Below are positions 5,365 through 58,567 of a stretch of 64,000 nt of DNA, in pieces; position 1 is the first letter of the stretch, and each line of letters starts with the position of its first letter. The stretch comes from Bacteroidota bacterium (GTDB lineage: Bacteria > Bacteroidota > Bacteroidia > Bacteroidales > Tenuifilaceae): the NCBI GenBank assembly GCA_029560875.1, contig JAKQKB010000178.1, forward strand, positions 45,387 through 109,386, given 5' to 3'. The translations under genes and the position numbers were made by a program. Under the pieces are notes generated by a model that saw nothing but the letters and a program-made list of their open reading frames with translations, was not told the DNA's origin and searched no databases.

Positions 5365-5952
5365 ATGAAATCATACTTAAGTTTAAGCCTAATTCTTATT
5401 GCAGTTTTTTTTTACGGATGTATTTCAACCTCTGTATTGGACCATTATCAGTACAAAAACTACAACGACGAATACAAAAAGACGAATCGTTCATCCTATT
5501 CTTTTGCATTAAGTCCCGATGAATGGAATAGTGGTATTGAATCCACCGAAATATCTTTTGTAAGAGAAAAAGGAGTTGATTTTGATATAGTAAAAGTATA
5601 CTGGGTTATTGAGCGCTCTTCATCAACTTTTTCAAGAGATACCAATGCATATGCAAAAGCGATGTTCAAAATATTTCCTTTGGAGATAAACTCTAACACC
5701 TCGGATTTTAGGCAACAAAAAGTAACCAAGCAATCATCAACCTCAAGTACTGACACATTATCGAAAAATGTAAAAGTAGTTGATAAATTATGGTACGAAG
5801 ATAAGTTTATATCAACTTTACAGCCAGAATTAGTTAATGCCATTAAAAACACCGGAGAACTTAACTTCCGATTTTACTACGGATCCAAAGTAGTTACCTT
5901 TACCATCAAAGGTGATAAACTAAAGAAAATCAAGAGCATTCTATTTGAGTAA
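5365..5952 (+). CDS. Predicted lipoprotein, unknown function
   Basis: I place the start at the ATG at 5365 because it gives a classic lipoprotein signal (hydrophobic 5-17, lipobox ending Tyr-Gly-Cys19). The in-frame ATG at 5311 adds 18 residues that do not look like a signal. The 195-residue product is polar after Cys19, rich in Ser, Thr and Lys, with beta-strand-like stretches, and ends in a basic segment. No family is recognised. It ends just before a strong palindrome at 5954-5987 that may stop transcription. Confidence 0.65.
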   Translation: MKSYLSLSLILIAVFFYGCISTSVLDHYQYKNYNDEYKKTNRSSYSFALSPDEWNSGIESTEISFVREKGVDFDIVKVYWVIERSSSTFSRDTNAYAKAMFKIFPLEINSNTSDFRQQKVTKQSSTSSTDTLSKNVKVVDKLWYEDKFISTLQPELVNAIKNTGELNFRFYYGSKVVTFTIKGDKLKKIKSILFE

Positions 5953-5953
5953 A

Positions 5954-5987
5954 ATCCCTTCAAGGGTTTTTGAACCCTTAAAGGGAT
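5954..5987. repeat. Near-perfect palindrome, terminator-like, related to 44752-44784
   Basis: Two 15-base arms (5954-5968 and 5973-5987) pair with one G-T-type mismatch around a 4-base loop, between two convergent genes. The inner arm AAGGGTT/AACCCTT is shared with the element at 44752. It lacks a long T-run, so it may be a dispersed palindrome serving as a bidirectional stop. Confidence 0.65.
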
Positions 5988-6004
5988 AAACTATATAATG
6001 TTAA

Positions 6005-6901
6005 TCAATACACTTCTGGTACAAAATTCTGGTCAGTAATTGGTGGCCGAATATAAGAATTATCCTCCCTGCGAGGCTCAAGTTTAATTGGAGGTGGAGT
6101 TAAATCCTCGTATGGAATTAGACTTAAAAGATGGCTAATACAGTTTAGCCTTGCTCTGCGCTTATCGTCGGCACGTACAACCCACCAAGGGGCTTGTTTT
6201 ATATCGGTATGAGCAAACATCTCATCCTTGGCTTTTGAGTATTCCACCCAACGGTTGCGCGACTCAACATCCATAGGACTTAACTTCCACCGCTTGGTAG
6301 GATCTTCAATCCTCTCATGGAACCGACGTTCCTGCTCTATATCGCTTACCGAAAACCAATATTTAATGAGAATTATATCGGAACGCACCAACATTCGCTC
6401 ATACTCTGGACACGACCTCAAAAACTCTAAGTACTCCTCCTCATTACAGAATCCCATGACTTTTTCGACCCCAGCCCTATTGTACCAACTCCTGTCAAAA
6501 AGGACCATTTCGCCTGCAGCAGGTAAATGAGCAACGTAGCGTTGAAAATACCATTGAGTTTTTTCTTTCTCAGTAGGAACGCCTAATGCAACAATTCTGC
6601 ATGAGCGAGGATTAAGTCTTTCGGAGATAGTTTTAATAACACCACCTTTTCCCGCAGCATCGCGCCCCTCAAAAATTAGCACAACTTTCAACTTTTTGAA
6701 CTTAATCCATTCTAAAAGTTTGTTGAGTTCAATATGGAGTCGTTCTATCTCCTTTTCGTAGAATTTTTTGTCAATCTTTTCGGGATGCGACTCAACAAGT
6801 TCGTAATGATCGTCTAACGATAGAACAGCATGTTTTTTTCCCTTATGCTTATTCTCATCCTTATCCTTTTTATGCTTCTTTTCTTTTTTATCCTTGCTCA
6901 T
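6005..6901 (-). CDS. ppk2: Polyphosphate kinase 2 (PPK2) family protein
   Basis: A 298-residue PPK2 enzyme, which uses polyphosphate to phosphorylate nucleotides (NDP to NTP or NMP to NDP depending on subtype). The Walker A GRDAAGKGG is at 79-87, the Walker B-like LFDRSWYNR at about 134-142, and the lid region is rich in Arg. The C-terminal WWVVRADDKRRARLN segment is typical. The first 25 residues are a very Lys-rich tail, perhaps for polyphosphate or nucleic acid contact. One domain only, so it is the short form. It converges on the upstream lipoprotein gene across the palindrome at 5954. Confidence 0.93.
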   Translation of the reverse strand: MSKDKKEKKHKKDKDENKHKGKKHAVLSLDDHYELVESHPEKIDKKFYEKEIERLHIELNKLLEWIKFKKLKVVLIFEGRDAAGKGGVIKTISERLNPRSCRIVALGVPTEKEKTQWYFQRYVAHLPAAGEMVLFDRSWYNRAGVEKVMGFCNEEEYLEFLRSCPEYERMLVRSDIILIKYWFSVSDIEQERRFHERIEDPTKRWKLSPMDVESRNRWVEYSKAKDEMFAHTDIKQAPWWVVRADDKRRARLNCISHLLSLIPYEDLTPPPIKLEPRREDNSYIRPPITDQNFVPEVY

Positions 6902-50720: not shown

Positions 50721-50764
50721 ATTATTTTTCAAAACATAGGTAACCATTCCACCCCTATCGGTAT

Positions 50765-50809
50765 TAAACATAAGAACGAGGTAAAATTCCCTCATTAATC
50801 TTATGTTTA
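50765..50809 (+). promoter_or_regulatory. Large stem-loop directly upstream of the HTH gene
   Basis: An 11-bp perfect outer stem (50765-50775 with 50799-50809) contains an inner GAGG/CCTC pair and ends six bases ahead of the ATG at 50816. It could be a 5-prime leader structure or an operator for the HTH protein. Confidence 0.45.
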
Positions 50810-50815
50810 GTTGAT

Positions 50816-51109
50816 ATGAATTTTATTGAATCAAAACGACTTATCGAGTATCTCGATTTTCTTTTACAGCAGGGCAACGCTGGAACTGCACCCGAAATTG
50901 CCGATAAGCTTGGAGTGAGCGAACGCACCGTGCGCAACTATTTTGAACAGTTAGAGAGTATAAAAGTACCCGTGGAGTACAATGCTATACTCAGAACCTG
51001 GAAGTATTCTCGCCCTGGTAGGCTTACCCTTTGCTTTATTGAGGATGAAACTAATAACCTAATTACTGATACCTCAAACTTTCCCCCCCCCCCCATAAGT
51101 ATGTTATAG
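50816..51109 (+). CDS. Small HTH protein at the head of the RiPP cluster, with a C12 tract
   Basis: A 97-residue protein with a DeoR/HTH_11-type helix-turn-helix at about 20-45 (APEIADKLGVSERTVRNYFEQLE) and a short beta tail. Such small HTH proteins often sit beside double-glycine peptide clusters in Bacteroidota, probably as regulators. Near the C-terminus the gene has a run of 12 C (51083-51094) coding Pro-Pro-Pro-Pro. One base more or less changes the reading frame: 11 C stops at once, and 13 C adds a 25-residue tail. Slipped-strand variation or a sequencing artefact are both possible. Confidence 0.75.
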   Translation: MNFIESKRLIEYLDFLLQQGNAGTAPEIADKLGVSERTVRNYFEQLESIKVPVEYNAILRTWKYSRPGRLTLCFIEDETNNLITDTSNFPPPPISML

Positions 51110-51124
51110 AACACAAAATCATTC

Positions 51125-51153
51125 ACAGGTCGGAAGTGTGGCTGCCGACCTGT
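51125..51153 (+). terminator. Hairpin between the HTH gene and the precursor gene
   Basis: A 9-bp perfect GC-rich stem (51125-51133 with 51145-51153), 11-base loop. It could end the HTH transcript. A partial -7 box (TACTTTG, 51159-51165) follows directly and may serve the precursor. Confidence 0.5.
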
Positions 51154-51238
51154 CCGTTTACTTTGTATTAACCAATCCATTAAAGTAAACTGCGCAGGAT
51201 GTATTGTGTTTATTATTAATTTTAAAAACTAGATTAAA

Positions 51239-51439
51239 ATGAAAACATTAAATGAAAATCTTTTGGGTGATTTTAAACTTCAAAATGCAGAGATGAAGTC
51301 TTTAAAAGGAGGATTACCAACTGTTGTTGATGTTATAACAACTTCAGGTAAGCATGGCAACGGTATGTGTGTTAACGATAAGCATACGTTCTATGATAAT
51401 GGTAGAAGTTCTTTTGAATGGGTTTACACTCAGTGTTAG
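51239..51439 (+). CDS. RiPP precursor peptide, double-glycine leader type
   Basis: A 66-residue peptide. Residues 1-25 are a leader with a Leu/Met-rich helix ending MKSLKGG, the natural-product-precursor double-glycine motif of Bacteroidota (TIGR04149-like), so cleavage after Gly25 by the C39 peptidase of the exporter at 55066 is predicted. The 41-residue core (26-66) has two Cys (44 and 66, the last residue), two His, acidic residues at 31, 47, 53 and 60, and several Ser/Thr/Lys that could act as partners in ester or amide crosslinks. It begins the modification genes of the grasp-with-spasm cluster, and its high-expression promoter is not clear. Confidence 0.85.
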   Translation: MKTLNENLLGDFKLQNAEMKSLKGGLPTVVDVITTSGKHGNGMCVNDKHTFYDNGRSSFEWVYTQC

Positions 51440-51538
51440 AGATGTCAAAGTAATTTAAGGAGGCTGTCTGTAAAGTATTTTTATGTCTCTGAGAATTGAA
51501 TATTTGAAAACTTCTAAGATAGGAGTACAAATAAAAAT

Positions 51539-51566
51539 AGGGTGTCTAGGATTTTTTAGACACCCT
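51539..51566 (+). terminator. Hairpin between precursor and modification genes (possible attenuator)
   Basis: A 10-bp perfect stem (51539-51548 with 51557-51566) with an 8-base loop sits in the 143-base gap after the precursor and just before the next gene. No T-run follows, so partial termination or mRNA protection of the precursor transcript is more likely than full termination. Confidence 0.5.
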
Positions 51567-51582
51567 AAATAAAAATTAATAT

Positions 51583-52740
51583 ATGAAAAGGATACAATTA
51601 TTTTTGATATGTTTCTTTGCTTTTAATGCTTTTGGTCAGTCTCAAGAAAGTTTTATTAATTATCATAATTCAGTCAATAAAATTGAAATTTTTGTTCGGA
51701 AGCAACTATATTCGGAAGCAATTTCTATGTATGAACAATTACAAAAGGAATATCCGCGCTTTTTTTACAAGGATTTACACAATTTGAGTATCTGCTACTT
51801 AAAGGTTGAAAAATTAGACAGCGCAATTAGTATTGCTCGCCGATTGGTTCTTCAAGGCTACACTTTTGATGATTTTTATAAATACAATGAGTATAATTGT
51901 ATTACTAATAACCCCTTGTGGGGTAATTTTTTAGCCACCTATCCTAGGTTACGTTTTGAATACGAAAAGACGATTGATCATACATTCGTTGATATGGTTA
52001 ATAGGGCTATAGCGTTTGACCAGCAGTATCAGGATAGCAGTGATGCAAAACGAGATTCTGTTTACTACTATCAGGGAGTAAACCTGTTCAATTATATGTT
52101 TAAGCATGGTTTCCCCAATTTCTACTTAAACAGAGAGAATGTAAACGCAAATCGTTTGATGGGTATGCTTAGGCATTTCTTTTATATGTCTCAGATTTTG
52201 GAGAATGATCCCGATTTATCTATTACCAAGCCATATTCTAATATGGTTATTGATAAAAAATATGAAGAATTATTATATAATGCAATTGTTGAAGGGAAAT
52301 TACCTCCATCAATCTTTGTTGATATAATGTATCGATTTGATAGTAGCCCTTATGGTTTTCTTGGAATTACTTTCGATTTCGATAAAGAGATTACTTATAT
52401 CGATTTAAGTTTGGGCAGTAGTTCAACTGTTGAGGATATAAACTTAAAGCGAAGATCTATAGGTTTGTTTGAGATTGATACGCTATCATCTGCTAATGTA
52501 GAGGGGACATGGTACGGTCAGGTTTCGGTTAGGGAAATGAAGGAGGCTATGCTGAATTGTGATACTTGTAATACTGTTTATGATTATTTTGATGTTGCAA
52601 GGCCAATTAGGGAGAAAATACAATTTTCTTATGAGAATAAGGAGTTATCCAGTTTTATTTTAAATTATGATCCTGCAAATCTTAACCATGCTCAGATGAA
52701 AAATTCTACAAAATATATGAAAAATCTAAAAAAGAAATAG
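51583..52740 (+). CDS. Secreted TPR-like protein within the RiPP cluster
   Basis: A 385-residue protein with a signal peptide (1-18, ending Ala-Phe-Gly) and TPR-like helical repeats in the first 130 residues. A longer helical-and-beta C-terminal half carries a Cys-Asp-Thr-Cys pair at about 325-328. No catalytic motif is recognised. Its place between the precursor and the ligase, in the same strand and within a few bases of the next genes, suggests a role in the peptide's fate: immunity, periplasmic handling, or a receptor. The function is unknown. Confidence 0.65.
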   Translation: MKRIQLFLICFFAFNAFGQSQESFINYHNSVNKIEIFVRKQLYSEAISMYEQLQKEYPRFFYKDLHNLSICYLKVEKLDSAISIARRLVLQGYTFDDFYKYNEYNCITNNPLWGNFLATYPRLRFEYEKTIDHTFVDMVNRAIAFDQQYQDSSDAKRDSVYYYQGVNLFNYMFKHGFPNFYLNRENVNANRLMGMLRHFFYMSQILENDPDLSITKPYSNMVIDKKYEELLYNAIVEGKLPPSIFVDIMYRFDSSPYGFLGITFDFDKEITYIDLSLGSSSTVEDINLKRRSIGLFEIDTLSSANVEGTWYGQVSVREMKEAMLNCDTCNTVYDYFDVARPIREKIQFSYENKELSSFILNYDPANLNHAQMKNSTKYMKNLKKK

Positions 52741-52778
52741 CATGAAATTGTTAATCATTCCAAATTATTCCGCTGTAA

Positions 52779-53765
52779 ATGATATTAGTTTTGAGCGAAA
52801 CATTAGATATTACCACCGATAGAGTTATTGATTGGTTATATAGTTTTGGTTATAAAGATGTGCTAAGAATTAATGACGGGACACCTATCTATGTAAAACA
52901 CATAAGTATTGGTTCCCCAAAAAGTGAGATAATTCTTTGTGCAAACGATCGTGTTTTTAATATTGAGGAAGTCTGTTTTTATTGGTATAGGAGGGGGCTT
53001 TTTTCTTTTGATATTTTACCATCAATAGACTTCGAGTTAAATTCAAATCTTGATAAGTTATTGTGGTTTCATAAAAACGAGTGGTATCCAATAAGAAATT
53101 ACATAATTAATAAATTTGAGTTAAAACCACATATTGGAAATTTACACAAATCAATTAGCAATAAGATAATCAACCTAGAAATAGCAAGGGCGTGTGGTTT
53201 AAAAATACCCCAAACTAGTATTTCTAATTATTCTGAGATATTAAGACAACAGATGTTGGATTCAAAAGAGTATATATGTAAGCCTGTTAGCGAATTTATT
53301 GATTTTGTTGATACGGACTATGAGTATAGCACTTTTACTCGTAAACTTAGTACTGAGGAATTACTTGAACCCTCTCATTATTCTTCACCTCAATTAATAC
53401 AAGAGTACATTGATAAATGGATAGAATTAAGGGTGTTTATTTTGAAAGATAAGGTTTTTTCTATGGCAATTTTTTCGCAAAAATACCAAGATACTAGTGT
53501 CGATTTTAGAGCAGGGGATTTAGATTCCCAATATAGAGTTGCTCCTTTTGAATTACCAGAAGAAATTACCCAAAAGTTGTTACAATTTATGAGTAATGCT
53601 GGTTTGGATAATGGTTCCATAGATCTAATACTAACTAATGATGGAGAATATGTTTTCCTTGAAGTAAACCCTATTGGTATAATTGATATGGTTTCGAAGC
53701 CATGTAATTACCATATTGAAAGAGAAATAGCTTTGCAAATAATTCAATCAATAGATGAAGCATAA
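52779..53765 (+). CDS. gwsG: Grasp-with-spasm ATP-grasp peptide maturase
   Basis: A 328-residue ATP-grasp ligase of the GwsG group (MdnC/RiPP-type). Visible parts are an N-terminal pre-ATP-grasp region (ILVLSETLDITTDRVIDW), the ATP-binding Lys in YICKPVSEF, the IQEYIDKWIELRVF loop, and the metal-binding DNGSIDLILTNDG with LEVNPIG at about 295. Members activate a carboxylate of the precursor with ATP and join it to Ser/Thr or Lys, making ester or amide crosslinks. It ends with an overlap of 11 bases to the small ORF at 53755. Confidence 0.85.
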   Translation: MILVLSETLDITTDRVIDWLYSFGYKDVLRINDGTPIYVKHISIGSPKSEIILCANDRVFNIEEVCFYWYRRGLFSFDILPSIDFELNSNLDKLLWFHKNEWYPIRNYIINKFELKPHIGNLHKSISNKIINLEIARACGLKIPQTSISNYSEILRQQMLDSKEYICKPVSEFIDFVDTDYEYSTFTRKLSTEELLEPSHYSSPQLIQEYIDKWIELRVFILKDKVFSMAIFSQKYQDTSVDFRAGDLDSQYRVAPFELPEEITQKLLQFMSNAGLDNGSIDLILTNDGEYVFLEVNPIGIIDMVSKPCNYHIEREIALQIIQSIDEA

Positions 53766-53919
53766 TTGTAATAAGATAAATCAACCGTCTCTCTGCTTGA
53801 AAAGGACTGAGGTTATAAAAGGTCAGGATATTATTCCTGTATTTATTAACTGTAAAAGGGTGCAAAATCCTAAAAGATTTTTAATTTCTCATAATCGAAT
53901 TATTTCTACTGTTTTCTAA
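53755..53919 (+). CDS. 54-residue basic small protein between gwsG and gwsS
   Basis: The frame runs ATG 53755 to TAA 53917-53919. It starts inside the last codons of gwsG (11-base overlap) and ends two bases before the gwsS ATG at 53922, the geometry of a translationally coupled gene. The product is very basic (10 Lys/Arg against two acidic residues), with Cys at 5, 14 and 33 and a Ile-Pro-Val-Phe-Ile-Asn-Cys block followed by Asn-Pro-Lys-Arg-Phe. No homolog or family is recognised, and no signal or membrane segment is present. It may be a missed component: a leader-binding helper, a regulator of the maturases, or an unannotated peptide. Confidence 0.6.
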   Translation: MKHNCNKINQPSLCLKRTEVIKGQDIIPVFINCKRVQNPKRFLISHNRIISTVF

Positions 53920-53921
53920 AT

Positions 53922-55028
53922 ATGAGTAATCTTCAAAAGTCAAAACATTATTCAAAGTTTGCTAATTGTATTGCTGTGAAAGGCTATTTGCATGGAATAG
54001 TTATGGATCTTCAGCGAAAACAATATTTATTTGTGCCTATTAATACAATAGGAGTTTTGGAGAAGAAATCTTTTTGTGCAGATGAATTTAGCCCAGAATA
54101 TAACAAGTTTATTGACTTTTTAGAACAAAATGAAATTATCTTTCCAATAAATAAAAAGAATGTAGATTGTTTTCCATCTTTCAATATGGATTTCCTAACA
54201 CCATCAATTATTGATAATTCAATAATTGATGCTGATGAGTTAACTCTAAATGATGTTTTTTTATTTATTAATCAATTAGATACGCTATTATGTAATTCGG
54301 TGCAGTTCAGGTTTTATAGTAAGCCTGAGAAATATTGTTTGTTATCTATATTAGATGCAATTAATGCAAGTTCAATTGAATCTGTGGAGATATTAATGCC
54401 AGAGGTAGAGTGGTTAAATGATTCAGCTCTAAAGGAGTTTGCTTTTAATAATAAAAAATTAACATCATTATTTTTTCATTCAGCAAAGAAGGATAATAAA
54501 AATTATTACAATCAAACAACGGTAACAAGGTTTGTTCATCCAATAAAATCGTTTCAAAATTGTGGGAATGTTAAACTGGGTTATTTTTATGTTGATATAG
54601 GATTAACTACATTGTCTTATTCTTATAACACTTGTCTTTTCAAAAAAATATCCATAGATGCACAGGGCTATATCAAAAACTGCCCATCCTGTACCCAATC
54701 ATTTGGAAATATAAAAAACACCACATTGAAGCAAGCTTTGGAGCATCCCGATTTTAAAAAGTTATGGAGTATAACAAAAGACCAAGTTGATGTTTGCAAG
54801 GACTGTGAGTTTCGCCATATGTGTACCGATTGCCGTGTTTACATAAAAGACCCCGAGAATATTTATTCTCAGCCATCCAAATGTACCTACAACCCATACA
54901 TTGCCAAATGGCAAGGAGAAGATGGGTATGTCCCTGTTGAGGAGTGTGGCACTTACTCCCGTGAAAAAGGTTTTGTTGTAAACCATGAACGAGTTGCTGA
55001 ACTAAACGCTCAAATTTGGGGTGAGTGA
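53922..55028 (+). CDS. gwsS: Grasp-with-spasm SPASM-domain peptide maturase
   Basis: A 368-residue protein with a C-terminal SPASM domain carrying the iron-sulfur Cys set (Cys238, 254, 257, 292, 295, 301, 304, 321 and 342). Its N-terminal region (1-230) shows no CX3CX2C radical-SAM motif: Cys occur singly at 16, 52, 83, 124, 139 and 214. So it is a SPASM protein without a visible radical-SAM cluster, and it more likely binds the precursor or supports the ligase than runs SAM chemistry. The stop overlaps the GTG codon at 55021 of the exporter frame. Confidence 0.85.
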   Translation: MSNLQKSKHYSKFANCIAVKGYLHGIVMDLQRKQYLFVPINTIGVLEKKSFCADEFSPEYNKFIDFLEQNEIIFPINKKNVDCFPSFNMDFLTPSIIDNSIIDADELTLNDVFLFINQLDTLLCNSVQFRFYSKPEKYCLLSILDAINASSIESVEILMPEVEWLNDSALKEFAFNNKKLTSLFFHSAKKDNKNYYNQTTVTRFVHPIKSFQNCGNVKLGYFYVDIGLTTLSYSYNTCLFKKISIDAQGYIKNCPSCTQSFGNIKNTTLKQALEHPDFKKLWSITKDQVDVCKDCEFRHMCTDCRVYIKDPENIYSQPSKCTYNPYIAKWQGEDGYVPVEECGTYSREKGFVVNHERVAELNAQIWGE

Positions 55029-55065
55029 TATAAATTGTTACTTTAGCTCTTCAAAATTACAAAAA

Positions 55066-57261
55066 ATGCTTTCTTTCCCCCATTATTCCCAGTACGATGC
55101 CATGGATTGCGGTCCAACATGCCTGCGTATAGTTGCAAAGTACTATGGCAAGCACTATAAGTTGGATACTCTGCGCAATCGTAGCCATATCACCCGCGAG
55201 GGTGTTAGCCTTTTGGGTATTAGCCGTGCGGCAGAGAGTATAGGTTTCCGTACAATGGGCGTTAAAATTAGCTTTGAGCAATTTAAAACTGAGGCTCCGC
55301 TACCAGCCATTGTGCACTGGAACCAGAACCACTTTGTGGTGGTTTATAAAATTACTGGCAAAAAAGGGCAGGAGGTTGTGCATGTTTCCGACCCTGCCGC
55401 GGGTTTAATTAAGTACCCCGTAAACGAGTTTTTGAACTGCTGGCAATCCACAACAGAGGGTGATGAGAAGCAGGGCGTGGCGTTGCTCCTAGAGCCCTCA
55501 CCCGATTTTTACTCCTCGGCCGATGAAAAGTTGAATAAACGTAGTCTATCTTATATTTTTAAATATTTACAGCCCTTCCGTAGGTTAATTGTACAGCTAT
55601 TCCTTGGTTTGTTATTAGGGAGTTTGCTGCAATTGCTTTTGCCTTTCCTAACGCAGAGCATAGTAGACCAAGGTATTGGCAATAGGAATATCAGTTTTAT
55701 ATACTTGGTGCTAATTGCGCAGTTGGTGTTAACGCTAAGCCGCGTTTCGGTTGAGTTTATCAGGGGGTGGATTCTCCTACATCTGGGAACACGGGTTAAT
55801 GTATCGCTAATCTCCGATTTTCTGGCTAAGTTAATGCGCCTACCAATGCGCTTTTTCGATACCAAAATGACTGGCGATTTAATGCAACGTATTGGCGACC
55901 ATAAACGTATCGAGAGTTTTCTGACTGGAACTTCGCTGAACGTTATATTTTCGTTTGTCAATGTAATAATCTTTGGTTTTGTATTGTTGATTTACAGTTA
56001 CAAGATTTTTGCGGTATTCTTTATAGGTAGTGCGCTTTACGCATTGTGGGTGGTGCTGTTCCTTAAAAAACGTGCCGAGTTGGATAATCGTAGGTTTGCG
56101 CAGATGTCGGCAAACCAGAGTAATGTTATTCAGCTTATCCAGGGAATGCAGGAGATTAAGTTGAATGGTTGCGAGCAGCAGAAACGGTGGGAGTGGGAGA
56201 ATATTCAGGCAAAACTGTTCCGTGTTAGCGTAAAGGGATTGGCTTTAAGCCAGTATCAGCAGAGTGGGGCTTTTTTGCTGAACGAAACTAAAAATATCAT
56301 TATAACAATTCTTGCAGCTAAAAGCGTGGTGGATGGTAATATGACTTTGGGTATGATGTTGGCTGTACAGTACATTATTGGTCAGCTAAACAGTCCCATT
56401 GAGCAGCTTATTAGTTTCTTCAATGCTATGCAGGATGCAAAAATTAGTTTGGAGCGTTTAAGCGAGATTCACCTTCGCGACGATGAGGAGAAATTGGAGG
56501 ATAACCTTGTTGCAGATATTCCCTCCGATGCCGATTTAAGCGTCGAGAATCTTTCGTTCCGTTACGAGGGTCCCGATAGCGAGTTGGTGCTAAACAATAT
56601 CAACATAAAAATCCCTGTTGGTAAGCAGACAGCCATTGTGGGAACATCAGGGAGTGGAAAAACCACTTTGGTGAAGCTACTACTTGGTTTTTACCCACCA
56701 AGTTCAGGCGAAATACTGCTAGGCCAAAATAATATTGATACATACAGCATCCGCCATTGGCGCGAGGAGTGTGGAGTGGTTATGCAGGATGGTTTTATCT
56801 TTTCCGATACCATTGCACATAACATAGCACCTGGCGCGGAGAGTATCGATAAGCAGCAGTTGATAAGAGCTGCTAAAATTGCCAATATCTACGATTTTAT
56901 AACATCGTTGCCACTTGGTTTCAACACTAAGATTGGAGGCGAAGGACACGGATTAAGTCAAGGACAGAAACAGCGAATACTAATTGCACGTTCGGTATAC
57001 AAGAATCCCAAGTATATTTTCTTCGATGAGGCCACCAACTCATTGGATGCAAGTAACGAGCGAATGATACTTGAGAATATGCAGGAATTTTTTAAGGGCA
57101 GAACGGCTGTTGTTGTGGCGCATAGACTGAGCACTGTGAAGAATGCCGACCAAATTATAGTACTGGAAAAAGGCAATGTTGTGGAGGTTGGTACTCATAA
57201 GGAATTAACGGCTAGCAAAGGTGCTTACTATACATTGGTAAAAAATCAACTCGAATTGTAG
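55066..57261 (+). CDS. C39 peptidase-containing ABC exporter (PCAT)
   Basis: A 731-residue bifunctional exporter. An N-terminal C39 peptidase (about 1-135) has the DAMDCGPTCL catalytic Cys15, the HWNQNHFVVV His region and a following SDPAAG Asp. A six-helix ABC membrane domain (about 160-440) follows, then an ATPase domain with Walker A GTSGSGKTT (about 528), the LSQGQKQR signature and Walker B IFFDEATNSLD. It removes the leader after Gly-Gly and exports the core. I start at the ATG 55066; the GTG at 55021 overlaps gwsS and lacks family similarity. Confidence 0.9.
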   Translation: MLSFPHYSQYDAMDCGPTCLRIVAKYYGKHYKLDTLRNRSHITREGVSLLGISRAAESIGFRTMGVKISFEQFKTEAPLPAIVHWNQNHFVVVYKITGKKGQEVVHVSDPAAGLIKYPVNEFLNCWQSTTEGDEKQGVALLLEPSPDFYSSADEKLNKRSLSYIFKYLQPFRRLIVQLFLGLLLGSLLQLLLPFLTQSIVDQGIGNRNISFIYLVLIAQLVLTLSRVSVEFIRGWILLHLGTRVNVSLISDFLAKLMRLPMRFFDTKMTGDLMQRIGDHKRIESFLTGTSLNVIFSFVNVIIFGFVLLIYSYKIFAVFFIGSALYALWVVLFLKKRAELDNRRFAQMSANQSNVIQLIQGMQEIKLNGCEQQKRWEWENIQAKLFRVSVKGLALSQYQQSGAFLLNETKNIIITILAAKSVVDGNMTLGMMLAVQYIIGQLNSPIEQLISFFNAMQDAKISLERLSEIHLRDDEEKLEDNLVADIPSDADLSVENLSFRYEGPDSELVLNNINIKIPVGKQTAIVGTSGSGKTTLVKLLLGFYPPSSGEILLGQNNIDTYSIRHWREECGVVMQDGFIFSDTIAHNIAPGAESIDKQQLIRAAKIANIYDFITSLPLGFNTKIGGEGHGLSQGQKQRILIARSVYKNPKYIFFDEATNSLDASNERMILENMQEFFKGRTAVVVAHRLSTVKNADQIIVLEKGNVVEVGTHKELTASKGAYYTLVKNQLEL

Positions 57262-57265
57262 AAGA

Positions 57266-58567
57266 ATGCAAGAAGAACCACAAATAAATATCCGTTCCGA
57301 AGAAATTAACGAGATTCTAGGAGTGCCTCCACGGTGGATTATCCGTTGGGGTATCACCGTTATTTTCATAGTAATTGGTACTGTTTTTACAGGAAGTTTC
57401 TTCTTTAAATATCCCGATATTGTTACAGCAACAGCAGTTATTACGGCAGAGAATCCTCCCTCGGTGGTTGTGGCTCGTACTACAGGAAAACCTCAGTTGA
57501 ACGTAGCTAAGGACGGGATTCTGGTTAACAAAGGCGATACCTTGGGGGTAATTGAGAATCCTGCAAACTTTGAGCATATAGTGCGATTATCAAATATTAT
57601 TAAGATTTTTAATGTCGATAGCGCTTTAAATGAGAATTCTTTAGGTCAGTTTAATGCGCTCAATTTAATGTTGGGAGATGTCCAGAGCAACTACTCGAAC
57701 TTTACAATAGCATTAACCAATTACATCCTTTTTCACAAGCAGAAATACCATTTGCAAAAGATAGATGCACTAGAGGGTGAACTAAAGGGGTACACTAATC
57801 ATTTAAAACTTCTCAATAAACAGTACAAACTTTTGCTCAAGGAGTACGACTTGACCTTGAAGCAGTTTAAGCGCGACTCTGTTTTGTTACAAGGAAAAGT
57901 TATTGCGCAGGCCGATTTCGAAAAATCACAATCCACAATACTGGCAAAGCAACAGAACTTGGAGAGTTCCAAGTTGACGATTTCCAATACATCAATTTCC
58001 ATTGAGAAGTTGAAGCAAACCATAGCTGAAACAAAGCTCGATTTCGAAACCCAGAAGCAAAAGGTTTACGATGATGTTGTAAACACATTTAACCAGTTGA
58101 AAAGCACCTTGGCAACCTGGGAAAAGAATTATTTGTTGGTAGCACCATCTTCAGGAAAACTATCGTTTATGGGTGTTTGGAGCGATTTGCAGGAAGTGAA
58201 GGCTGGTGAACCAATTTTTGCCATAATTCCCGAGAATTTGGGCGAAATTCAAGTGCGTATGGTTGTTCCTTTTGAGGGAGCAGGTAAGGTAAAGGTTAAT
58301 CAACGTGTGAACATTAAACTCGATGGATACCCCTACATTGAGTATGGAATGGTTGAGGGTGTTTTATCGTCGATATCATCGGGATATAATGAGAATGGAT
58401 TTCCTGCAATGGCAAAACTACCCAATGGAGCTGTAACATCATACGGAACAACATTAAACCTCGAAAGAGAGTTGCGAGGAACGGCCGAGATATCGACCGA
58501 GGAACTTACAGTTTTCCAACGATTATTCAACCACTTCAAGTATTTGTACAAGGAAAAGGTTAAATAG
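57266..58567 (+). CDS. HlyD-family secretion adaptor of the RiPP exporter
   Basis: A 433-residue membrane-fusion protein: cytosolic N-terminus, one membrane helix (about 28-50), a biotinyl-lipoyl-like beta part with TGKPQLNVAKDGILVNKGDTLG (about 73-95), a long coiled coil (about 165-275) and the beta-barrel end with QVRMVVPFEGAGKV. It joins the inner-membrane exporter to an outer-membrane channel. Only four bases separate it from the exporter gene. No TolC-type gene is seen in the window, so an outer-membrane partner must be elsewhere. Confidence 0.9.
   Translation: MQEEPQINIRSEEINEILGVPPRWIIRWGITVIFIVIGTVFTGSFFFKYPDIVTATAVITAENPPSVVVARTTGKPQLNVAKDGILVNKGDTLGVIENPANFEHIVRLSNIIKIFNVDSALNENSLGQFNALNLMLGDVQSNYSNFTIALTNYILFHKQKYHLQKIDALEGELKGYTNHLKLLNKQYKLLLKEYDLTLKQFKRDSVLLQGKVIAQADFEKSQSTILAKQQNLESSKLTISNTSISIEKLKQTIAETKLDFETQKQKVYDDVVNTFNQLKSTLATWEKNYLLVAPSSGKLSFMGVWSDLQEVKAGEPIFAIIPENLGEIQVRMVVPFEGAGKVKVNQRVNIKLDGYPYIEYGMVEGVLSSISSGYNENGFPAMAKLPNGAVTSYGTTLNLERELRGTAEISTEELTVFQRLFNHFKYLYKEKVK

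Follow-up and report, generated by a model that had tools for sequence, protein, structure and literature searches.

The window, by which we mean the whole stretch of 64,000 nucleotides of Bacteroidota (Bacteroidales) DNA that was analysed, carries on its plus strand genes for an HTH protein, a double-glycine precursor, a secreted TPR-like protein, an ATP-grasp ligase, a small ORF, a SPASM protein, a C39-ABC exporter and a HlyD adaptor, in this order. All eight ORFs were found where the original prediction had placed them. The features, numbered from the first nucleotide of the window, are the following.

50726..51201, + strand: 5′ unit (HTH gene and leader) that recurs ahead of cassettes; 76–83% DNA identity to units of the related genome G002
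50816..51109, + strand: HTH protein (HTH_11), probable cassette regulator; PF08279, 37.2 bits (cut-off 25)
51126..51152, + strand: inverted repeat in the leader ahead of the precursor; 8 pairs, 4 with two-sided changes
51239..51439, + strand: precursor peptide, 66 aa; from its sequence and homologues, TIGR04149 being below cut-off
51583..52740, + strand: secreted TPR-like protein, predicted recognition or immunity protein; model, profile comparison and relatives
52779..53765, + strand: GwsG, ATP-grasp peptide ligase; TIGR04192, 249 bits, and PDB relatives
53755..53919, + strand: small ORF at the LPL protein position; 54 aa, 98% identical in G002
53922..55028, + strand: GwsS, SPASM protein without CX3CX2C; TIGR04193, 248 bits, alignment, model and motif
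54645..55031, + strand: constant 3′ part of gwsS, which tracks the exporter locus; 87% identical in DNA to a gwsS of G002
55021..57261, + strand: ABC exporter with C39 peptidase domain, start probably at ATG 55066; PF03412, PF00664 and PF00005
57266..58567, + strand: HlyD-type adaptor; PF13437, 39.5 bits

The array had been taken for a grasp-with-spasm RiPP cluster with its export set, and the profile searches support this reading, as TIGR04192, TIGR04193 and the Pfam domains for C39, ABC, SPASM and HlyD_3 all scored above their thresholds. GwsG reached 249.3 bits with TIGR04192 (cut-off 230), and its nearest PDB chains are 5ig9, 5ig8, 7m4s (AMdnB) and 7mgv (CdnC), which bears out its assignment as an ATP-grasp peptide maturase. 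GwsS reached 248.3 bits with TIGR04193 (cut-off 175). The third profile proposed for checking the prediction, TIGR04149, did not follow suit: the precursor scored 13.2 bits, under the curated cut-off of 25, and the label was rejected for it. Searching the window's own genome with TIGR04149 returned two matches, both below the cut-off; because of this, and because chance matches occurred in 6 of 14 control genomes, the search was left unused. The small ORF matched nothing in the TIGR and Pfam profile searches; it lies directly upstream of the SPASM gene, the position in which Makarova et al (2022) place the LPL protein, and several relatives have ORFs of similar size between ligase and SPASM gene. 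The exporter carries PF03412, PF00664 and PF00005, and HlyD_3 was found in the adaptor, each over threshold. The alignment of most relatives begins only near residue 12–17 of the longer exporter frame, which makes ATG 55066 a more likely start than GTG 55021.

The precursor has a double-glycine-type leader (MKSLKGG, residues 19–25 of 66) and adjoins maturase genes. Homologues were found next to matching genes elsewhere, as the original prediction implied, one of them (at locus L037) with KGEG in place of GG. Among seven precursors compared, Asp53 is invariant; Cys44, which with Cys66 lies in the predicted 41-residue core, is absent from two. Upstream, the unit comprising the HTH gene and leader resembles three to four units of G002, which precede different cassettes, and four of the eight pairs of its inverted repeat are changed on both sides (8 sequences from 5 genomes). 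The secreted TPR-like protein gave no direct Pfam match up to an E-value of 1, DUF6624 (PF20329) included. When its profile was compared with four PF20329 proteins, the result was 97.5% (E 5.5e-12, 271 columns); at the level of profiles, the protein appears to be a remote relative of DUF6624. Its model had no Foldseek match at E 0.001, and the rows returned were TPR-like only, mostly covering residues 18–125.

The model of GwsS has the predicted fold of a radical-SAM/SPASM maturase; the fold assignment rests on this model, as a profile search with GwsS matched no PDB sequence with E < 0.2. The motif CX3CX2C is missing from GwsS and occurred in none of 21 aligned family members and none of 78 named loci (two sets that overlap by at least nine loci). 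On this ground, the view of GwsS as a radical SAM enzyme was rejected, and there is no reason to assume a second, radical cross-link; GwsS, like every relative checked in lacking the motif, is probably a leader-binding partner. That GwsS itself modifies the peptide, for example via SPASM iron–sulfur clusters, adding a second modification such as a thioether, is improbable to us. Most of the 21 aligned members retain the SPASM cysteines, the window's precursor core holds two cysteines, and the family is called radical SAM enzymes in the part of PMC8939145 available; set against this, besides the motif missing from every sequence checked, are the loss of several SPASM cysteines at loci L048 and L050 and the lack of Cys44 in two of seven precursors. 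With the motif missing, the role of the SPASM protein becomes a question that simple co-expression can address.

Precursor, TPR protein, ligase and SPASM gene recur jointly and in the same order at 3 of 20 loci compared (L032 in G002, L036 in G005 and L037 in G016), so the array is not a product of chance. Most of the gene set is ∼93% identical to its copy in the related species G002, the ligase and SPASM genes 97–98%, whereas the compared flank genes differ far more. At fourfold sites, identity is 97% for gwsS (112 sites) and 93% for gwsG (84 sites), compared with 42% for the exporter (243 sites), 35% for the HlyD gene (124 sites) and 38% for 16 flank genes pooled (799/2089). In G002, the window-type cassette has no adjoining exporter; the exporter lies 55 kb away. 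For the comparison with G002, movement of the whole cluster as one block was rejected, given that exporter and HlyD resemble the flank genes while the cassette does not, and that ligase and SPASM genes have diverged less than the HTH gene, the precursor and the TPR gene in its 3′ half. A cassette near-identical to that of G002 amid strongly diverged flanks suggests that such gene sets are likely exchanged as cassettes ahead of a shared exporter. As judged by these comparisons, the gene set acts as an exchangeable cassette, not as a fixed operon, which corrects the original prediction.

The gwsS gene itself is a mosaic, the last third of which goes with the exporter locus. A second gwsS of G002 is 87% identical to that of the window in the 3′ part of the DNA, and only 19–44% identical in protein over the 5′ part. 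Two observations here tell against exchange: fourfold identity of these two tails (41–60%) is like that of the exporter, which shows co-inheritance with the exporter locus, not a recent event, and in two of the pairs compared (G021/G018 and G005/G016), there is no jump in identity along gwsS. Tails of gwsS without a body occur at eight places in 6 of 27 family genomes, four of them behind radical-SAM-type genes and seven just ahead of an exporter start (the exception, in G010, is not beside an exporter). Such findings could also arise if the gwsS tail and the exporter start were kept by function, for example as exporter promoter or docking tail, the sharp change in identity then reflecting selection instead of recombination. 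The frequent position of the tail just ahead of the exporter and the equal divergence of tail and exporter between window and G002 would fit this explanation. Between G023 and G018, in contrast, the tails are 92–100% identical at fourfold sites (12 and 9 sites) and the exporter 76%; moreover, tails also precede stubs where no exporter gene is present, and frameshifts occur in several of the tails. We regard conservation by function as unlikely, if somewhat less so than catalysis by GwsS.

Exporter 5′ stubs, 14 in total, were found in 8 of the 27 family genomes; these relatives are mostly draft genomes, and two of the stubs end at contig ends. In G023, a 329-bp repeat made up of a gwsS 3′ end and an exporter 5′ end follows a TIGR04150 gene; a second copy, 97% identical, follows the next ATP-grasp cassette. 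The stubs, together with the orphan gwsS ends behind radical-SAM-type genes, indicate from gene content that one exporter family carries cassettes of several chemistries; against this, 6 of 18 exporters had no typed cassette. An ordinary RiPP locus subject to tandem duplication and decay, in which repeats, stubs and tails are the remains of copies of the same cluster and no different cassettes were imported, is the least probable explanation considered here. It would account for the duplicated TPR–precursor unit of G018 (L044), 83% identical and with a cut ligase gene, and for the partly degenerate state of the arrays. It does not account for unrelated neighbours across near-identical repeats (in G023 a TIGR04150 and an ATP-grasp cassette, in G002 an ATP-grasp and a radical SAM cassette), nor for cassette and exporter differing so much in fourfold identity between the same two genomes.

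Our main reading, to which we assign a probability of roughly 0.7, is that the window holds a grasp-with-spasm (graspetide-type) RiPP cassette directly before a C39-ABC/HlyD pair, that it likely yields an exported, side-chain cross-linked peptide, and that recombination near the gwsS end and the exporter start is likely how it arrived. GwsG would join Asp53 to the side chain of a Ser, Thr or Lys, with GwsS and the small ORF as putative leader-binding partners; the C39 domain would cut after Gly25 during export, and the secreted TPR protein may recognise the product, perhaps conferring immunity. If a cassette is inserted by a single crossover where gwsS 3′ meets exporter 5′, the older cassette would then lie behind a gwsS tail plus a stub of the exporter. 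Beyond this, and at little better than even odds, the exporter may be an unchanging platform on which cassettes are exchanged. Cassettes that differ entirely in chemistry (ATP-grasp/SPASM, radical SAM with pseudo-radical-SAM, CefB-like radical SAM, and double-glycine peptides without a recognised maturase) would be inserted at that junction, and exporter stubs would have the displaced ones in reserve behind them; one recombination would then let a strain change its secreted-peptide chemistry.

The pneumococcal blp locus works alike, in that variable peptide genes beside a constant exporter are changed by recombination, but it is Gram-positive and its bacteriocins are unmodified; we know of no maturase swap or exporter stub there. 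In polymorphic toxin loci, displaced orphan modules persist beside a stub of the constant gene, which provides homology. Unlike in those loci, no toxin protein is involved here, and the constant gene is the exporter. Our literature search, restricted in library and wording, returned nothing on exporter stubs or on the exchange of cassettes at such loci, and no paper with the term grasp-with-spasm.

The locus type is already known: it is that of the branch 5 (Bacteroidetes) graspetide loci, which carry a SPASM protein, an LPL protein and a cluster 23 protein (Makarova et al, 2022; PMC8939145, here and below as far as the text was available). These loci share with the window the ligase and SPASM families, precursors of the double-glycine type, a small gene immediately before the SPASM gene, genes for C39-ABC and HlyD, and diverse precursors beside similar ligases. 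Beyond this go the lack of CX3CX2C in GwsS, in a family labelled radical SAM there, and the likely exchange of genes as a cassette; where the accessible text describes exchange, it concerns chryseoviridin loci (whole locus and precursors), and exporter stubs, gwsS tails and replacement by radical-SAM cassettes do not feature in it. According to the available part of Carter et al (2026; PMC13097080), group 14 graspetides always co-occur with a SPASM protein, and the ligases of rosaritide and corallotide need a partner protein; GwsS is not among the partners characterised, of which one is a peptidyl-prolyl isomerase-type protein and the other an oxygenase partner. The Bacteroidales clusters with radical SAM and pseudo-radical-SAM proteins (TIGR04148/TIGR04150), as covered in the accessible text of PMC10352776, likewise have double-glycine peptides, C39 exporters and, in the pseudo-radical-SAM protein, a presumed partner, but a different maturase. 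In the genomes compared here, cassettes of this very type and graspetide cassettes share one exporter family. Whole-cassette exchange at a shared exporter, if true, would help explain why unrelated precursors stand beside similar ligases in Bacteroidetes graspetide loci (PMC8939145), and gwsS tails and exporter stubs would then be a sequence marker for hidden RiPP cassettes.

All eight ORFs of the array claimed in the original prediction (HTH protein, 66-residue precursor, secreted TPR-like protein, ATP-grasp ligase GwsG, small basic ORF, SPASM protein GwsS, C39-ABC exporter and HlyD) were recovered in place. Both maturases were borne out by profile search, GwsG exceeding the cut-off of TIGR04192 (249 bits versus 230) and GwsS that of TIGR04193 (248 versus 175). 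C39, ABC membrane and ATPase domains were found in the proposed exporter, directly downstream of which a HlyD-type adaptor is encoded. The precursor, in turn, stayed below the cut-off of the precursor profile TIGR04149 (13.2 bits versus 25). PDB chains aligning with GwsG include 5ig9 and 5ig8 (named ATP grasp ligase), AMdnB and CdnC, which we take to be microviridin-type ligases, and the FLEVNPIG stretch is kept in GwsG. Profile scores, domains and the PDB alignment of GwsG identify the cluster, at the level of sequence, as a grasp-with-spasm system, a kind already described, with predicted chemistry and activity. The TIGR04193 cut-off was exceeded in 11 of 99 relatives. The draft genome itself (G000, 237 contigs) contains two grasp-with-spasm loci; in the second (L031, contig C150), GwsS is without the C-terminal tail, and no window-type exporter was found within the 17 kb of sequence examined. 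A further C39-ABC exporter of G000 (L141, contig C220) is 56% identical and has a CefB-like radical SAM gene upstream.

In the same-genus genome G002 (a single contig), the cassette is present at 3,844,977–3,849,095 in the order HTH, precursor, TPR, ligase, small ORF and SPASM. The sole full window-type exporter (within the 100 kb examined) lies ∼55 kb off, behind other cassettes, and no cluster was found in G002 at the position matching that in the window. Window positions 51565–55076 and the G002 cassette are 93.2% identical over 3,515 columns, with identity differing by gene as follows.

Identity between the window and G002 (nucleotides; fourfold sites, number of sites)
gwsS: 98%; 97% (112)
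gwsG: 97%; 93% (84)
TPR gene: 85%; 74% (84)
Precursor gene: 81%; 61% (18)
Exporter gene: 79%; 42% (243)
HlyD gene: 68%; 35% (124)

Within the TPR gene, fourfold identity was 32/34 for residues 40–175 and 25/44 for residues 176–385. For flank genes (16 genes of the window that lie outside the cluster, encode at least 250 aa and have matches in the G002 stretches examined; one, at 31% aa identity, is probably a paralogue), it amounted to 799/2089 (38% pooled, range 29–55%). As fourfold identity is high in the cassette core and low in the exporter and flanks, the comparison argues that the core has moved between the window and G002 lineages, later than the divergence of the rest. A 100-bp scan resolved blocks of 97–100% identity, with diverged patches at the HTH gene, at the precursor gene and in the 3′ part of the TPR gene. 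Because patches fall at the latter two, the precursor varies together with the C-terminal half of the TPR protein, which fits a predicted recognition or immunity role. In G001, of the same genus, an exporter with 92% DNA identity occupies the window's position, preceded by ∼20 codons of gwsS and then the contig end; codon 584 of the exporter frame is a stop. Window 3125–50681 shows inverted gene order relative to the G002 loci L088/L089, one end being at the cluster site.

The gwsS gene is itself mosaic. GwsS of the window and that of the second G002 gwsS are 19–44% identical per 40-column block to column 240 and 85–95% beyond, and the last 387 bp of the genes share 87% DNA identity. Between G023 and G018, identity jumps at column 321, fourfold sites being 92% and 100% identical in the tail (12 and 9 sites) versus 76% in the exporter (299 sites). 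Jumps near the tail were also seen in the gwsS pairs inside G016 and inside G038; none was found for G021 versus G018 or G005 versus G016.

When the 27 family genomes were searched with GwsS residues 316–368, 25 matches were obtained in 12 genomes, 15 of them inside frames of at least 317 aa. The other 10 represent eight places in six genomes where the frame does not exceed 56 aa and the gwsS tail is orphaned from its body. All but one (in G010) lie within ∼125 bp 5′ of an exporter start. The exporter behind the tail is full in G001, G003 and G008 and a 5′ stub in G002 and G023 (two each). Four of these seven tails are preceded by radical-SAM-type genes (G003, G008 and both in G023), the two in G002 by a TPR gene and by a 271-aa protein, and that of G001 by the contig end; several orphan tails are frameshifted or contain stops. 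Exporter stubs number 14, in 8 of the 27 genomes (four in G021, three in G002, two in G023, and one each in G003, G010, G011, G015 and G018), those of G003 and G018 being cut by the contig end and another contig-end stub of G018 left uncounted. With ATG 55066 as the start, just the start codon and some four further codons would remain in the G002 stubs. Of 393 genomes sampled from the order, 15 contain the gwsS tail.

Of the 27 family genomes, 18 have a close exporter (66% identity or more in a 97-aa query, frame no shorter than 588 aa), behind different cassettes.

Cassettes upstream of the close exporter
ATP-grasp and SPASM: three genomes (G000, G018, G023)
Radical SAM and pseudo-radical-SAM: three genomes (G007, G008, G019; the G019 cassette is separated from the exporter by a 543-aa protein and a double-glycine peptide)
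CefB-like radical SAM: three genomes (G002, G003, G010)
Double-glycine peptides and a ∼500–540-aa protein, without recognised maturase: three genomes (G021, G022, G024)
Not typed or mixed: six genomes (G001, G005, G009, G011, G015, G016)

Enzymes of loci L042, L043 and L033 were typed by profile, all others by tblastn similarity to those. The profile scan gave 458 bits for TIGR04148 (cut-off 300) and 364 and 262 bits for TIGR04150 (cut-off 250); the best TIGR04463 score, 166, was below the cut-off of 525. At L033 of G002 (5489–6116), a tandem of three double-glycine peptides whose end is rich in CxCxC adjoins an S41 peptidase and a CefB-like radical SAM enzyme. At L139 (8615–12568), 5′ of the G022 exporter, a 542-aa protein stands beside seven double-glycine peptides, whose leaders are near-identical and whose Cys-rich cores differ.

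In G023 (L043), a 329-bp repeat, 97% identical and consisting of the gwsS 3′ end and the exporter 5′ end, stands behind a TIGR04150 gene and again behind the ATP-grasp cassette that follows. Plain duplication would not give this layout, because the two cassettes are unrelated; a single-crossover insertion at the gwsS-3′/exporter-5′ junction would yield it.

An inverted repeat in the HTH-to-precursor region was found in eight sequences from five genomes. In the alignment, 89% of cells pair versus at most 50% with partners slid, and in four of the eight pairs both partners are changed; these paired changes occur in two G002 sequences and may go back to a single event. The repeat stands in front of graspetide cassettes in G000 and G002 and also of a radical-SAM cassette in G002, suggesting common control. 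Inside the HTH gene 3′ end, a C12 run (51083–51094), one of just two homopolymer runs of at least 9 in the window, is a possible slippage (phase-variation) tract; of 13 other HTH regions checked, 7 have a C or G run of 6–14 at this place, and in L133, next to the run and an N gap, the HTH homology is divided between two frames.

The precursor matched three clusters in a set of 5.8 billion proteins, and remote homologues are encoded at L036, L037 (with KGEG in place of KGG) and L125. Among seven precursor sequences, G42, V45, D53, G55 and C66 are invariant and Cys44 is missing in two; owing to its invariance, Asp53 would be the best candidate acid for a cross-link. Between the precursor and TPR genes, a strong hairpin (51538–51567; −18.6 kcal/mol, z −5.8), behind which a T run was looked for on the + strand and was absent, is possibly an attenuator setting precursor excess. 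The secreted protein has TPR-like helices in its predicted structure (pLDDT 83.4), and profile comparison relates it to four DUF6624 proteins (97.5%, E 5.5e-12), two of them encoded directly behind a SPASM gene (L282, L040).

The literature searched yielded no description of the exchange architecture of such clusters. According to excerpts of PMC13097080, DUF6624 is highly frequent in certain graspetide groups. Judging by the excerpted text of Makarova et al (2022; PMC8939145), the window cluster has its ligase and SPASM families in common with branch 5, where a cluster 23 protein is usual and precursors are highly diverse. There, a small LPL gene lies immediately 5′ of the SPASM gene, the place occupied in the window by the small basic ORF.
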